Below are positions 4,352 through 32,058 of a DNA stretch of 39,533 bases, in pieces. The translations under genes and the position numbers were made by a program. The notes beneath the pieces are model-generated. The model was not told the DNA's origin. It ran no database searches and saw only the letters and a program-made list of their open reading frames with translations. This stretch comes from Acinetobacter towneri DSM 14962 = CIP 107472. Its GTDB lineage: Bacteria > Pseudomonadota > Gammaproteobacteria > Pseudomonadales > Moraxellaceae. Where the stretch lies: contig NZ_KB849679.1 of NCBI RefSeq assembly GCF_000368785.1, positions 6,263 through 45,795 on the forward strand, written 5' to 3'. The stretch's first letter is position 1. Every line of letters begins with the position of its first letter.

Positions 4352-4456
4352 TTTTGAATTTAAAAATCACACTGAGTTTTAAATTCAAAATCTACAATTT
4401 AAAAGCAAAAACTTAGTTATCCACAACTCAAACTAACTGTTATTTTAAATTCAAAA
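4352..4456. repeat. AT-rich quasi-palindrome repeats with one DnaA box (locus A)
   Basis: Three copies of a 14-base motif lie at 4352-4365 (TTTTGAATTTAAAA), 4377-4390 and 4443-4456 (both TTTTAAATTCAAAA, the reverse complement), plus a partial copy near 4397. An exact DnaA box TTATCCACA lies among them at 4417-4425. The same motif occurs in oriC and in the 30.3 kb array. The rest of the 4087-4536 gap holds the yheS hairpin and nothing else I recognise. Confidence 0.75.
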
Positions 4457-9949: not shown

Positions 9950-11326
9950 TCAACTTTGCAACAATCGTTGCAGGTTTTTATAGTCTTCGTTAAAGATCGG
10001 ATCTTCTTCGCGCAGGCTTTGTACTTTTTCGCAGGCATGCATCACGGTACTGTGATCACGGCCACCAAATGCCATACCAATTTCAGGGAAACTGTCGCCT
10101 GTCAGCTCACGTGCCAAACCCATTGCCAACTGACGTGGACGCGCATAAATACGGGTACGTTTTGGCCCCACCAATTCTTTGAGCGGAATACGGAAATATT
10201 CACTCACGACTCGCTGAATATTTTCGGTACTGATGGTACGTGCGCGAATTGCCAAGACATCTTTTAAAGATTCACGTACCACATCTAGATCGATTGGGGT
10301 GCCTTTAAAACGGGAAATTGCCACCACTTTATTGAGTGCACCTTCAAGTTCACGCACATTAGCCACCACTTGCTGGGCAATAAATAAAGCACAGTTACGT
10401 GGTAAATCTACGGCGCTGCTTTCAGCTTTCTTTAATAAAATTTCAATTCGGGTTTCAATATCTGGCGGTTCTACCCCGACTGATAAGCCCCAAGAAAAAC
10501 GTGACACCAAACGTGCATCCAATTCGGTTAATTCTTTTGGATAACGGTCTGAAGTCAAAATAATCTGTTTAGATTCATCCAATAAAGCGTTAAAGGTATA
10601 GAAAAACTCCACCAAACTGGCTTCTTTACCTGCCAATAAGTGAATGTCATCCACCAATAACAAATCTAAAGAGCGGCAGTTTTTCTTAAATTCTTCAACC
10701 TTACCCTGCTGCAAAGAGCTGACAAAATCCTGCACAAAACTTTCTGCAGTCATGTACATCACCCGTGCATTCGGTTTGGCTTGCAACAAAGCATTGCCCA
10801 CCGCTTGCATCAAGTGAGTTTTACCCAAACCTGTTGGGCCATACAAAAATAATGGGTTGTGCTGTGAAGCCCCCAATTGGGTCAATACCTTGCGACAGGT
10901 TTCCGCAGCCATTTGGTTAGAACGACCTTCCACAAATAAGGAAAAGGTAAATAACGGATTGAGTTGGCGTTTACGGCTTTTTGCAGAACTTTCTTCTTTT
11001 TCACGTTTAGGCTTGGCCACAGGCGCAGGGCTAGATTCCAGCGCAGCAGTAGTGGTAGCAGGTTGTTCACTGGCCGATAAAATTGCACCTGGACGCGAAT
11101 CGACTAAAATTTCGACCTTACGCACGCGTCCCTCAGACAACTGCTCTGCCAAAATAGTAATCAATTCCAGATGATGTTCTTGAATGTAACGCGTCCAATA
11201 AGGATTAGGCGCATAAAGTTTTAATGTATCTTCAACTTCTTCTGCCACCAATGGGCGAATCCACATTGTAAAGACATTTCCAGAGAGCTCTTGTCGCAAG
11301 CGATTTAAGCAGTCCGTCCAAAGCAT
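9950..11326 (-). CDS. dnaA: Chromosomal replication initiator protein DnaA
   Basis: A 458-residue AAA+ initiator that binds DnaA boxes and melts oriC. Domain I spans residues 1-75. A low-complexity linker follows (about 80-118, rich in A, S, E and P). The AAA+ domain has Walker A GPTGLGKT (163-170) and Walker B LLLVDD (222-227). The DNA-binding domain IV carries the signature GGRDHSTVMHA (421-431). It is the first gene of the leftward dnaA-dnaN-recF-gyrB cluster and borders oriC directly. A DnaA box lies inside its likely promoter, which predicts autoregulation. Confidence 0.98.
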   Translation of the reverse strand: MLWTDCLNRLRQELSGNVFTMWIRPLVAEEVEDTLKLYAPNPYWTRYIQEHHLELITILAEQLSEGRVRKVEILVDSRPGAILSASEQPATTTAALESSPAPVAKPKREKEESSAKSRKRQLNPLFTFSLFVEGRSNQMAAETCRKVLTQLGASQHNPLFLYGPTGLGKTHLMQAVGNALLQAKPNARVMYMTAESFVQDFVSSLQQGKVEEFKKNCRSLDLLLVDDIHLLAGKEASLVEFFYTFNALLDESKQIILTSDRYPKELTELDARLVSRFSWGLSVGVEPPDIETRIEILLKKAESSAVDLPRNCALFIAQQVVANVRELEGALNKVVAISRFKGTPIDLDVVRESLKDVLAIRARTISTENIQRVVSEYFRIPLKELVGPKRTRIYARPRQLAMGLARELTGDSFPEIGMAFGGRDHSTVMHACEKVQSLREEDPIFNEDYKNLQRLLQS

Positions 11327-11348
11327 GTGAAACCCCTATCTAATCCAT

Positions 11349-11723
11349 TTTTAAATTTAAAACTTCTCTCGACCGCCTGAGCGGGTCGCCATTCTAACCA
11401 AGTTATCCACATCTGTCATGACAAAATCAGCAAAATTGCTCAAAAAAGGAATCATTAAACCTGAATTTAAATTTGAAACGTGGTGTGGATAAGTTTATCC
11501 GCAAGGTGTGGATAAAATATAGCACAAAGTTATCCACATAGTATTAAAATTATAGAAACACAGATATCCACAATTCAAAATTTTGTTTTATAAAAGAAAA
11601 AGTGGGTTTTCAACAGAAAAATGCGTCCCTAATAGTAATAAATTTAAATTTATAAATTTGAATTTATTTATAAGAAACGTTGCAACTGTGGATAATTCAA
11701 TCTGAGTTTAAATTTAAATTCAA
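11349..11723. repeat. AT-rich quasi-palindrome repeats within oriC (locus B)
   Basis: Copies of the TTT(A/G)AATTTAAA motif: TTTTAAATTTAAAA at 11349-11362, TGAATTTAAATTTGA at 11462-11476, a run of overlapping copies at about 11641-11666, and another at about 11706-11723. A weaker AATTCAAAA lies at 11572-11580. They alternate with the DnaA boxes. The motif is shared with the loci at 4.4 and 30.3 kb. Confidence 0.7.
11391..11419 (-). promoter_or_regulatory. dnaA promoter with DnaA box in the spacer
   Basis: On the minus strand ATGACA (plus positions 11414-11419) and TAGAAT (11391-11396) are 17 bases apart, five of six matches to each sigma-70 hexamer. The exact DnaA box at 11403-11411 lies entirely within the spacer. 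A GC-rich dyad (11371-11387) and one AT-rich quasi-palindrome (11349-11362) lie in the presumed leader before the ATG at 11326. Confidence 0.65.
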
Positions 11724-11825
11724 AACCGAAAATTTTAAAATTAAACAGAATAAGCTTGTGGATAATTATGTGAATAATACTGTTAATAACTTATTAGTCA
11801 AGCATAAACAATTACTTATCTTGTG

Positions 11826-11831
11826 TATACT
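11826..11831 (+). promoter_or_regulatory. Possible -10 element of the rpmH operon promoter
   Basis: TATACT at 11826-11831 lies 155 bases before rpmH. No good -35 hexamer is visible 16-18 bases upstream, so the assignment is tentative. The remaining leader to 11986 has no other recognisable feature. Confidence 0.3.
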
Positions 11832-11986
11832 TTAATTTGTATGATCAACCAGTCAATTGAGCGAAAACTTGTTAAAAAGAAAAATTTAGGCTTATTTTGC
11901 AAGAAACCGTGTTTTTCATTGACAGCTCAAGCAATGCGCACTAAAATCGCGGACCTTTATAGAAAGATCATTTTTGGAGTTTCGAT

Positions 11987-28971: not shown

Positions 28972-30093
28972 ATGGATAAGACCATCGGTATTTTTGGTGG
29001 CGGTCAATTGGGTCGCATGATGGCACAAGCGGCTTTACCCTTAAATATTCAATGTACCTTTTTTGAAGCCAGTCCAGATTGCCCAGCGGCAACCTTGGGT
29101 CAGGTTTTTGCCAGCAAAAGCGAAAATAGCCTACAAGATTTTATACACAGTGCCGATGTATTCAGCCTTGAGTTTGAAAATACTCCGTTGGCTGATGTTG
29201 ATGTATTGATTAAGCACAAAGACTTGCATCCACCACGTCAGGCTTTGGCAATTGCCCAAAACCGCTTGCTGGAAAAAGGCTTATTTGATGAATTGGCGAT
29301 TCCTGTTGCGCCGTATAAAGCGGTCAACTCGCTGGAAAGTTTACAGGCTGCTGTAACTGAACTTGGTCTGCCAATTGTGCTAAAAACCGCAACAGGCGGC
29401 TATGATGGCAAAGGTCAGTTTGTCTTGCGCAGTGCAGATCAGATTGAACAAGCATGGGCAGAACTTGGCCCTGCAGGCAGCTTGATCGCAGAAAGTTTTG
29501 TTACTTTTTCACGTGAAGTATCTATTATTGCGGTGCGTGGTCAAAATGGTGAAGTAAAAACTTGGCCATTGGCAGAAAACCATCATCACAACGGTATTTT
29601 GTCGCATTCGATTGTCCCTGCACCAAACAGCGCTGACTTGCAGCCTGCGGCACAAGACTATATCACTCGCCTGCTCAATCACTTGAATTATGTAGGTGTG
29701 TTGACGTTAGAGCTATTTGTCACTGACAAGGGCTTGTATGCCAACGAGATGGCACCTCGTGTGCATAACTCAGGTCACTGGTCAATTGAAGGCGCGGTGT
29801 GTTCGCAGTTTGAGAACCATATTCGTGCTGTAGCAGGTTTACCGTTAGGCTCAACTGAAGTGGTACGTCCAACGGTGATGGTCAATATTATTGGTCAGCA
29901 TCCCAAAACTGAAGATGTGTTGGCATTGAATGGCGCACATTTGCATTTGTACAATAAAACTGAGCGTGAAGGTCGTAAAATTGGGCATATTACTTTAATG
30001 CCGAATGATGCTGCTGAGTTGACAGATTTATGCCGCCAATTGGCAAAAATTTTGCCAAATCCATTGGCGCTCAGTGCTGATATGAGCTTGTAA
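28972..30093 (+). CDS. purK: N5-carboxyaminoimidazole ribonucleotide synthase
   Basis: A 373-residue ATP-grasp enzyme that uses ATP and bicarbonate to carboxylate AIR. The N-terminal domain begins IGIFGGGQLGRMM. The ATP-grasp core shows PIVLKTATGGYDGKGQF, then AESFVTFSREVSIIAVR, then the metal-binding NEMAPRVHNSGHWSIEG. The C-terminal domain has LHLYNKTEREGRKIGHITL. Motifs and length fit PurK. It is cotranscribed with purE and ends in a strong terminator. Confidence 0.97.
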   Translation: MDKTIGIFGGGQLGRMMAQAALPLNIQCTFFEASPDCPAATLGQVFASKSENSLQDFIHSADVFSLEFENTPLADVDVLIKHKDLHPPRQALAIAQNRLLEKGLFDELAIPVAPYKAVNSLESLQAAVTELGLPIVLKTATGGYDGKGQFVLRSADQIEQAWAELGPAGSLIAESFVTFSREVSIIAVRGQNGEVKTWPLAENHHHNGILSHSIVPAPNSADLQPAAQDYITRLLNHLNYVGVLTLELFVTDKGLYANEMAPRVHNSGHWSIEGAVCSQFENHIRAVAGLPLGSTEVVRPTVMVNIIGQHPKTEDVLALNGAHLHLYNKTEREGRKIGHITLMPNDAAELTDLCRQLAKILPNPLALSADMSL

Positions 30094-30109: not shown

Positions 30110-30138
30110 AAAGCGCTCATCACGATGAGCGCTTTTTT
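30110..30138 (+). terminator. purEK terminator
   Basis: AAAGCGCTCAT and ATGAGCGCTTT form the stem around CACG, followed by a T-run ending at 30138, 17 bases after the purK stop. Confidence 0.9.
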
Positions 30139-30320
30139 ATGCTCTCACATTTTTTATTCTGCCCATTTTTAAGGTGTTCTACCGTTAATCTGTCTAGGAT
30201 TGACGCTGTAATTTTAGGTTGATTAAGATAGATCAGGCTGAATAAGCAACCATCACCGTAGCAAAGCAATACTTAAAATAAAAATGCGCACAAGTCTGAT
30301 GGGAAACAGATGATAATTAT

Positions 30321-30756
30321 GAATTCAAAACTTTAAATTCAAATAGCGCGTTTTAAATTTAAAGCGATGCTTCAACTTTGAATTTAAATATCAGAAATGA
30401 ATTTAAAGATAGATCTGCAGTTTTGAATTTAAATAAAGTAGCGGCTCTTTTGATCTTTAAATTTAAAAAGCTACTTTTAAATTCAAAGTAATACATCGTA
30501 AATATGCAGTGAATGTCGTGTTTTGTGGATAACTTGGGTTGGTTTAATTTGAATTTAAACTTTTAAATTTAAAAGTCTTATCATGTGTTGTGATTTTGAA
30601 TTTAAAAATGTGAGATGCCGTACTTGTGGATAAGTGTTTTAAATTTAAAACGAGAAAATGAATTTAAAACTGTGTAAATGAATTTAAAGTTACAGATTTT
30701 CATCTGATCTCTGTGGCTGAAGGTGTTATGGTAAAGCCAAGATTTAAATTCAAAAC
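30321..30756. repeat. Dense array of about 15 AT-rich quasi-palindromes with two DnaA boxes (locus C)
   Basis: The motif is TTT(A/G)AATTTAAA, 12-14 bases. Copies start near 30321, 30331, 30351, 30377, 30398, 30421, 30455, 30474, 30548, 30560, 30594, 30637, 30659, 30679 and 30741. Seven read GAATTTAAA, three TTTAAATTC, four are symmetric (TTTAAATTTAAA) and one is degenerate. Several neighbouring centres are 19-26 bases apart, near two helical turns. Two exact DnaA boxes (TGTGGATAA) sit in the gaps at 30524-30532 and 30625-30633. The array fills most of the 678-base gap before mltB; its last copy ends 15 bases before the mltB ATG. Function unknown. Confidence 0.85.
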
Positions 30757-30771
30757 ACATCAAAGGGTATT

Positions 30772-32058
30772 ATGCATCGTTTCGCTGTGATTTTTGCGAC
30801 AGCTGCAATGGCAGCTACTCAGGTTCAGGCAGAACTAATTATCAATGGAAAATCTGTCACCGTAACACCAACGGTCAGTACATCTGCAAATTTTCAACCA
30901 CAAAACCATTTTCAAAGTTGTTTGGCCAACTTACGCAGCCAAGCCATTGCCAAAGGGGTGAGTGGCAGCAGTTATGATCGCTATACTCAAAATCTCAGCC
31001 CAGATTATTCCGTCATTGAGCGTTTAAATTACCAACCTGAATTTTCTACGCCAATCTGGGATTATCTCTCAGGCTTGGTCGATGATGAGCGCGTGCAGGC
31101 AGGACAGCAGAAATTGGCACAGCACCGTGATGTGCTCAATCGTGTTGCAGCAGCCTATGGCGTACCTGCAGAAACCGTAGTGGCGGTTTGGGGTGTAGAA
31201 AGTAACTTTGGTGCGATTTCAGGATCCTATCCATTATTGCAAGCGCTAGGTACCTTGAGCTGTGAAGGACGCCGTCAAAGCTATTTCCGAGGTGAGTTTT
31301 TTACCACCATGCGTTTATTGCAACGTGGTGATGTCACTGAATCACAATTAAAAGGCTCATGGGCAGGGGCGTTTGGGCATACTCAGTTTATGCCATCGAC
31401 CTATGATGAGTTGGCGGTCGATTTTGATGGTGATGGTCGCCGTGACTTAGTATCTAGTATTCCAGATGCTTTGGCTTCCACCGCTAACTTTTTAAAACGT
31501 CGCGGCTGGCAAACAGGGCAGCCGTGGGGCTTTGAAGTCAAAGTGCCTGCAGGCATGTCTTTGAGTGGTGAAGGGCGACGCAATAAAAAATCCCTCAGCA
31601 GTTGGGTTAATCGTGGGTTGACTCGTGCAGATGGTTCGGCATTAATTCAGGGCAATTTATCGGGCAGTAGTCAGGCAGGCTTGATGGCACCTGCAGGTGC
31701 GAATGGCCCTGTATTCTTAGTGTTTAGAAACTTCGATGCCATTTATAGCTATAACGCAGCAGAAAGTTATGCCTTAGCGATTGCGCATTTATCAGATCGT
31801 TTAATGGGGCAGTCTGCATTCCGCACCGCTTGGCCAACCGATGATGCAGGTACATCCCGCGCAGAACGCCGTGAAATTCAACGCTTTTTGTTAAGTCGTG
31901 GTTATGACATTGGTGAAGTGGATGGTTTAATTGGCGACAAAACCCGTCAAGCGATTCGTCAGGAACAGACTCGACTCGGCTTGGCTGCAACAGGTCGGGC
32001 AGGGCAGCAAATTTTAAGAGCGTTTCGTAATGAAGCGGCCAAACAAATGATGCAATAA
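30772..32058 (+). CDS. Lytic murein transglycosylase, MltB family, with peptidoglycan-binding domain
   Basis: A 428-residue exported enzyme that cleaves the MurNAc-GlcNAc bond to leave 1,6-anhydro ends. A signal peptide covers residues 1-20 (ends TQVQA); there is no lipobox, so it is probably soluble in the periplasm. The SLT_2/MltB catalytic domain shows VVAVWGVESNFG with catalytic Glu143, then GAFGHTQFMPSTY and the FDGDGRRD block. Residues about 365-425 are a C-terminal peptidoglycan_binding_1 domain (EIQRFLLSRGYDIGEVDGLIGDKTRQAI). Together with mpl it belongs to cell-wall turnover. Its upstream region is the AT-rich repeat array, which may control it. Confidence 0.92.
   Translation: MHRFAVIFATAAMAATQVQAELIINGKSVTVTPTVSTSANFQPQNHFQSCLANLRSQAIAKGVSGSSYDRYTQNLSPDYSVIERLNYQPEFSTPIWDYLSGLVDDERVQAGQQKLAQHRDVLNRVAAAYGVPAETVVAVWGVESNFGAISGSYPLLQALGTLSCEGRRQSYFRGEFFTTMRLLQRGDVTESQLKGSWAGAFGHTQFMPSTYDELAVDFDGDGRRDLVSSIPDALASTANFLKRRGWQTGQPWGFEVKVPAGMSLSGEGRRNKKSLSSWVNRGLTRADGSALIQGNLSGSSQAGLMAPAGANGPVFLVFRNFDAIYSYNAAESYALAIAHLSDRLMGQSAFRTAWPTDDAGTSRAERREIQRFLLSRGYDIGEVDGLIGDKTRQAIRQEQTRLGLAATGRAGQQILRAFRNEAAKQMMQ

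Follow-up and report, generated by a model that had tools for sequence, protein, structure and literature searches.

An origin-linked array of AamA-type sites and DnaA boxes in Acinetobacter towneri: a candidate locus for timing replication initiation

The gap between purK and mltB in Acinetobacter towneri DSM 14962 = CIP 107472 packs 11 exact copies of the 12-bp motif TTTRAATTYAAA (15 counting near variants) and two exact DnaA boxes into ~440 bp. The question is what such an array does at this place on the chromosome. It was analyzed within a window of 39,533 nucleotides, the whole stretch of DNA under study, which also contains the predicted oriC. Our preferred answer, held at a probability of about 0.6, is that the array is an origin-linked, AamA-marked DnaA-binding locus that helps time replication initiation.

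Composition of the array and identity of its motif

The exact 12-mer, TTT[GA]AATT[TC]AAA, occurs 11 times at positions 30321-30756 (Table 1), compared to a mean of 0.0185 and a maximum of 1 in 2000 dinucleotide shuffles of the array stretch. The count of copies and boxes bears out the dense array described in the sequence-only reading that preceded this work. The even spacing described there held only weakly. Successive exact sites are separated by 20, 25, 45, 34, 20, 72, 14, 33, 43, and 105 bp, and steps of 19-20 and 25-26 bp are the commonest across 77 purK-mltB gaps (see below). The site helical-phase vector across these gaps is weak (0.125 at 10.25 bp), which gives no support to the accompanying proposal of a protein bound to one face of the DNA. 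Promoter-like sites are not in excess in the purK-mltB gap (2 versus 3.6 in shuffles), the window has no Rfam match at gathering scores, and a search of 50,697 phage records (E 1e-5) gave no match to the gap. The terminator-like hairpin behind purK would insulate the array from purK transcription.

Table 1 Features of the purK-mltB array and of the origin-side loci in the window. Positions are those of the window.
Feature	Position	Strand	Remarks
gyrB-side cluster	4353..4455	no strand	exact AamA-type sites 4353, 4378, 4444; exact DnaA box 4417-4425
Predicted oriC	11327..11986	no strand	gap between dnaA (9950-11326) and rpmH (from 11987)
Predicted oriC, exact AamA-type sites (n = 3)	11350, 11707, 11713		
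Predicted oriC, exact DnaA boxes (n = 6)	11403, 11484, 11507, 11530, 11687, 11757		
purK	28972..30093	+	upstream neighbor of array; NCBIfam TIGR01161
Terminator-like hairpin and T run	30110..30135	+	directly 3' of purK
AamA-site/DnaA-box array	30318..30756	no strand	11 exact TTTRAATTYAAA plus variants; motif is the published AamA target
Exact 12-mer, starts	30332, 30352, 30377, 30422, 30456, 30476, 30548, 30562, 30595, 30638, 30743		
Near-variant TATGAATTCAAA, 1 copy	30318-30329		starts just outside 30321-30756
Near-variant AATGAATTTAAA, 3 copies	30396, 30657, 30677		
AamA-type site TTTAAATTCAAA	30332..30343	no strand	first exact site of the array
AamA-type site TTTAAATTTAAA	30352..30363	no strand	
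AamA-type site TTTGAATTTAAA	30377..30388	no strand	
AamA-type site TTTGAATTTAAA	30422..30433	no strand	
AamA-type site TTTAAATTTAAA	30456..30467	no strand	
AamA-type site TTTAAATTCAAA	30476..30487	no strand	
Exact DnaA box TTATCCACA	30524..30532	-	AamA site centered ~25 bp 5' (second preferred distance)
AamA-type site TTTGAATTTAAA	30548..30559	no strand	
AamA-type site TTTAAATTTAAA	30562..30573	no strand	
AamA-type site TTTGAATTTAAA	30595..30606	no strand	
Oriented composite	30625..30649	-	exact DnaA box 30625-30633 and AamA-type site 30638-30649, centered ~14.5 bp on the 5' side of the box
AamA-type site TTTAAATTCAAA	30743..30754	no strand	last of the array
mltB-type lytic transglycosylase	30772..32058	+	downstream neighbor of array; NCBIfam TIGR02283

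By sequence, the array 12-mer matches the m6A target published for the orphan adenine methyltransferase AamA of A. baumannii (PMC10483419). A known methyltransferase target thus takes the place of the binding platform for an unknown protein that had been suggested. SMRT sequencing of strain ATCC 17978 with and without aamA gave TTTRAATTYAAA as the proposed target; 59 of 66 motif I-VI positions were methylated in the first run, 41 in the second, and none in the aamA mutant (PMC10483419). The strongest signals came from regions 1 and 2, which held 29 + 9 of the 59 methylated positions in the first run and 28 + 9 of the 41 in the second (PMC10483419). Region 2 is dnaA/rnpA, and region 12 adjoins a SAM methyltransferase gene (PMC10483419). 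We infer that region 1 corresponds to the present array: its 28-29 methylated positions, taken as strands, fit the 13-14 palindromes per array of the pittii/nosocomialis/calcoaceticus group, and an 'mltA' gene is named in the paper. The aamA mutant had 1.5- to 2.4-fold more rnpA, dnaA, and pitA RNA and grew more slowly, neither of which was restored by complementation, and it formed filamentous cells in one medium (PMC10483419). At trmD (operon) and at other places, the sites resemble those of ordinary promoters (PMC10483419). Since some sites lie in the trmD operon and in the smtA coding cluster, AamA marks other places too. The related motifs TNTNAATTNAAA and TTTRAATTNA are partially m6A-modified in every A. 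baumannii strain tested in PMC10287943, all of which have aamA homologues, and Dam is stated there to be absent from the genus. The motif is also among the methylation motifs detected in further strains (PMC13227989).

The AamA-type gene of A. towneri (L122:1417-2709) encodes a 430-aa D12-class methyltransferase (PF02086). Its neighbors are ribD, itself preceded by an NrdR-type ATP-cone ORF, on one side and riboflavin synthase on the other. The name aamA rests here on the class and on the nrdR neighbor given in PMC10483419, rather than on a sequence match to A1S_0222. The same genome carries both the exact 12-bp motif in a dense cluster and an aamA-type gene near nrdR, which makes the array a candidate AamA methylation-site cluster. 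A search by sequence found no solved structure for AamA at E up to 1. The genome also has a second D12-class adenine methyltransferase, Dam-like and below the NCBIfam cut-off (L123:1375-2235; G000:C30); it adjoins a 476-aa ATPase-like ORF and a HigBA-like pair (named by eye) in what is possibly a defense island.

Distribution in the genome and conservation in the family

The A. towneri genome (2.95 Mb, 42 contigs) contains 36 exact AamA-type sites and 9 copies of the backwards-read pattern. Three loci in the window hold 17 of the 36: the array (11), the dnaA-rpmH gap (3), and the gyrB-side cluster (3). The array is not a general AT-rich repeat because the genome has just 36 exact sites, and this count speaks against the equal density in AT-rich gaps genome-wide that the sequence-only reading had considered. 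There are 55 exact DnaA boxes in the genome and 9 in the window, and all 9 lie inside the array, the oriC gap, or the gyrB-side cluster. The array is ~18.6 kb from the predicted oriC, counted from 11713, the last site in the dnaA-rpmH gap, to the first exact array site (30332).

Five further exact sites lie inside a SAM-methyltransferase gene on contig C24 (L023:9170-9626). Counterparts of this cluster (L109, L110, L111, L113, L115, and L116) have 3-6 exact sites in coding sequence, and the gene adjoins an FAD amine-oxidase-like gene (named by eye). In four named genomes this smtA cluster lies at a distance of ~188-235 kb from oriC, and it is mostly devoid of exact DnaA boxes, with one in L113. 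Other clusters were seen in relatives. In A. portensis, a stretch of ~110 bp at ~1.69 Mb (L117:3585-3694) combines two exact AamA-type sites with three exact DnaA boxes; it lies near a serC-like ORF (named by eye), far from oriC, and may be a second, DARS-like locus. A cluster of 3-4 exact sites common to A. cumulans and genome G136 (L112:5443-5565 and L114:5688-5852) adjoins ORFs of 163-168 aa and 249 aa. A gyrB-side-like cluster of 3 sites with no exact box occurs ~7 kb from dnaA in A. cumulans (L118:6949-7024) and is absent from the stretches examined in A. portensis, A. pittii, and A. nosocomialis (L119, L120, and L121).

Conservation was assessed at 80 named purK loci, the best 80 of 356 PurK relatives, a sample that for this reason favors close species. 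Among named genomes, the PurK closest to that of the window is from A. towneri, at 98%. The order purK, at least 4 exact sites, mltB was found in 77 of the 80, and the other 3 are cut by contig ends. Site and box counts come from 77 gaps, namely the window and 76 relatives scored complete. Outside this count are L035, L093, and L097, which run into contig ends and still have 2-4 sites, and L059, an intact array before mltB (7 sites and 3 boxes) that belongs to the 77 ordered loci and whose gap end was wrongly placed by an ORF. Each of the 77 gaps has at least 4 exact sites (median 9), with a total of 726 versus 2.2 in shuffles. Exact DnaA boxes total 146 versus 0.45; 72 of 77 gaps have at least one, 56 of 77 have at least two, and 5 of 77 have none. 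The range per array is 4-15 AamA-type sites and 0-4 exact boxes. Clades differ in where the sites lie and on which strands the boxes are, so it is the composition that is preserved, with turnover in the details.

A whole-genome search for the motif covered six named genomes. The array lies ~18.6-22.6 kb (by subtraction) from the next oriC-side site in A. portensis, A. cumulans, A. pittii, A. nosocomialis, and A. ihumii; the A. portensis and A. cumulans records begin at dnaA. In A. harbinensis, the sixth, the search found TTTGAATTTAAA only as single copies ~17.5 kb apart, although the purK gap of this genome has 6 sites counting all forms. The recurrence of the array near oriC, the excess of DnaA boxes, and the presence of the motif in the dnaA-rpmH gap uphold the original proposal of an origin-side element with a DnaA connection.

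The arrangement of boxes and sites was analyzed after the 80 gaps were grouped into 41 similarity clusters, with one representative for each box-bearing cluster (37 gaps, 74 boxes). An AamA-type site is centered 12-17 bp 5' of TTATCCACA at 29 of 74 boxes. Random non-overlapping placement (2000 trials) gave a mean of 8.3 and a maximum of 20, a null that ignores shared ancestry between clusters, and flipping the box strand reduced the count to 6. The box at 30625 and the site at 30638 are the example in the window. Such an asymmetry in spacing points to DnaA working side by side with whatever acts on the AamA site.

A family draw of 199 genomes included 66 of the window's genus, and all 66 have an AamA homologue at 82-100% identity. 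The same is true at 84-85% identity for the 4 genomes of genus g10 in the same family. Each of the four carries 6-8 sites together with 2 exact boxes on the downstream side of purK, and a further 2-3 sites lie upstream of dnaA. The 26 genomes used for locus comparison were hand-picked to cover motif-poor Acinetobacter plus the ordinary G007, and genera with and without AamA. Sites near purK were absent from all 13 sampled genomes of other genera. Among 12 dnaA loci of other genera, several of which were short or cut stretches, only G166 has a site (genus g13, AamA at 48%); G171 has no dnaA match and is absent from the oriC comparison. No array was found in four g5/g13 genomes with AamA homologues at 48-53% identity.

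A locus-by-locus comparison took in nine same-genus genomes, of which eight had been picked for having few motif copies. Sites near purK number 6 in G046, 14 in G007, and 4 in G050. The other 6 of 9 (G077, G131, G148, G098, G129, and G020) keep AamA and have 0-1 site within 1.5 kb on each side of purK. In G077, which lacks the array, purK (1.68 Mb) is far removed from dnaA, which sits at base 1. A strict one-to-one co-occurrence of AamA and array does not hold in these same-genus genomes, which have AamA and at most one site in the stretches around purK. Within ~760 bp upstream of dnaA, 1-5 sites were found in 8 of 8 same-genus genomes; the ninth, G148, is cut there. Because sites upstream of dnaA are present even where those near purK number 0-1, oriC looks like the core AamA target and the array like an addition to it.

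A proposed mechanism and its rivals

The array likely couples DnaA availability to the hemimethylation that replication generates, by analogy with Dam-SeqA plus datA. At usual fork speeds, no more than a minute would separate firing from the passage of a fork through the array, and because the fork would arrive so soon, oriC and the array would turn hemimethylated together. The DnaA boxes would double at once and the new boxes would take up DnaA. The dense hemimethylated sites may compete for AamA, hold a putative hemimethylation-reading protein, or both, with slower remethylation as the result. The oriC and dnaA promoter would then be refractory until AamA restores full methylation. SeqA (PF03925) was found in 0 of 60 same-genus genomes with a positive E. 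coli control, which rules it out as the reader. A bolder version is possible, and we hold it more tentatively than the main reading: the AamA mark would be dedicated to the origin, with its 12-bp target concentrated in oriC and a few origin-side DnaA-box arrays; together with a putative reader it would independently replace Dam-SeqA plus datA, and the array 19 kb away would set the length of the refractory period.

The conserved DnaA boxes near oriC could also be explained by a plain DnaA-titration or DnaA-cycling locus of the datA or DARS type, in which the 12-mer mainly binds a nucleoid protein in the role of IHF or Fis and AamA methylation is secondary. The oriented box-to-site spacing would be expected if such a 12-mer protein cooperates with DnaA. 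However, an array has just 0-4 exact boxes and 4-15 AamA-type sites, the 12-mer is precisely a methyltransferase target whose published methylation is densest in two such regions, and the nucleoid protein would be a putative one. We regard this explanation as unlikely. The AamA study implies for its targets a methylation-sensitive regulatory block, here acting on the downstream lytic transglycosylase gene, as the sequence-only reading had also suggested. The fixed order of purK, sites, and mltB at the named loci fits this idea, as does the 1.6-fold change of 'mltA' RNA in the aamA mutant, which was restored by complementation (PMC10483419). A promoter switch, however, needs fewer than 11-15 sites plus DnaA boxes over 440 bp, and the motif also marks the dnaA-rpmH gap and the gyrB-side cluster. 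Furthermore, no mltB lies beside the array in 3 of 4 g10 genomes within the stretch examined; another gene start follows instead, in one case that of an RlaP-family protein. A transglycosylase block has thus become less likely than first thought and is now a rather improbable account of the array.

Many palindrome copies near oriC in both orientations would suit a segregation or anchoring site, where a protein on methylated 12-mers tethers or pairs newly replicated origins, but DnaA boxes are not expected in such a site and AamA-type sites also occur in the dnaA-rpmH gap itself, which makes this explanation very unlikely. Neutral drift of an AT-rich repeat, or a CRISPR-like array, is hardly credible. 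In a survey of A. baumannii strains, the repeat ATTTTGAATTTAAAA does appear among CRISPR arrays (PMC8891609), but a single locus kept in 77 of 80 named loci and a shuffle expectation of 0.0185 copies refute drift. A 12-bp palindrome in both orientations with irregular steps of 14-105 bp does not have the anatomy of a CRISPR, with its direct repeats in one orientation and even unique spacers. The calls of the 12-mer repeat in Table 1 of PMC8891609 look like miscalled AamA arrays.

Significance and relation to known systems

AamA methylation of the motif is known (PMC10483419). We found no link of this methylation to oriC, DnaA boxes, or the purK-mltB array, and no account of re-initiation control without SeqA in Acinetobacter, in the open-licence PMC literature. 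The main text of PMC10483419 has 0 hits each for 'oriC', 'DnaA box', 'origin of replication', and 'replication origin' and does not appear to present the dense region as conserved or tied to the origin; of the site upstream of dnaA, the paper says that it fits other reports of 6mA in replication initiation. Where there had been a list of methylated positions, the present analysis defines a conserved cis-element that has a DnaA partner and whose enzyme is known. If the origin-linked reading is true, it would explain in a simple way why effects on growth, filamentation, and dnaA expression were reported for the aamA mutant, and it would show that a methyltransferase target can become largely dedicated to the origin region.

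The ATCC 17978 methylome (PMC10483419) has the same 12-bp TTTRAATTYAAA, is densest in regions 1 and 2 with region 2 at dnaA/rnpA, and has its region 12 beside a SAM methyltransferase gene like the C24 cluster here. Its authors read the targets mainly as promoter switches, in contrast to the locus proposed here. The CACAG and GTWWAC methylation motifs of Burkholderia cenocepacia are likewise rich in origins and found at DnaA boxes, but they have far more sites genome-wide (6,834 and 961), and PMC7364216 does not appear to report an origin-linked array.

In the E. coli Dam-SeqA system, the sites of an orphan adenine methyltransferase are crowded in oriC and the dnaA promoter, and replication creates a hemimethylated cluster (PMC13337833). 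The predicted A. towneri oriC similarly carries methyltransferase sites, 3 exact ones in the dnaA-rpmH gap. The difference is a 12-bp AamA-type target with 36 genomic sites instead of GATC, the lack of SeqA in the 60 same-genus genomes, and the additional array 19 kb from oriC. The E. coli datA, DARS1, and DARS2 are non-coding loci that carry DnaA boxes and keep their distance from oriC constant (PMC4585315), and here too a conserved non-coding stretch near oriC has DnaA boxes (at least one in 72 of 77 gaps). Unlike datA and the DARS loci, the array has fewer exact boxes and many methyltransferase sites. The proposed mechanism would thus resemble Dam-SeqA and datA/DARS in its logic and not in its parts.
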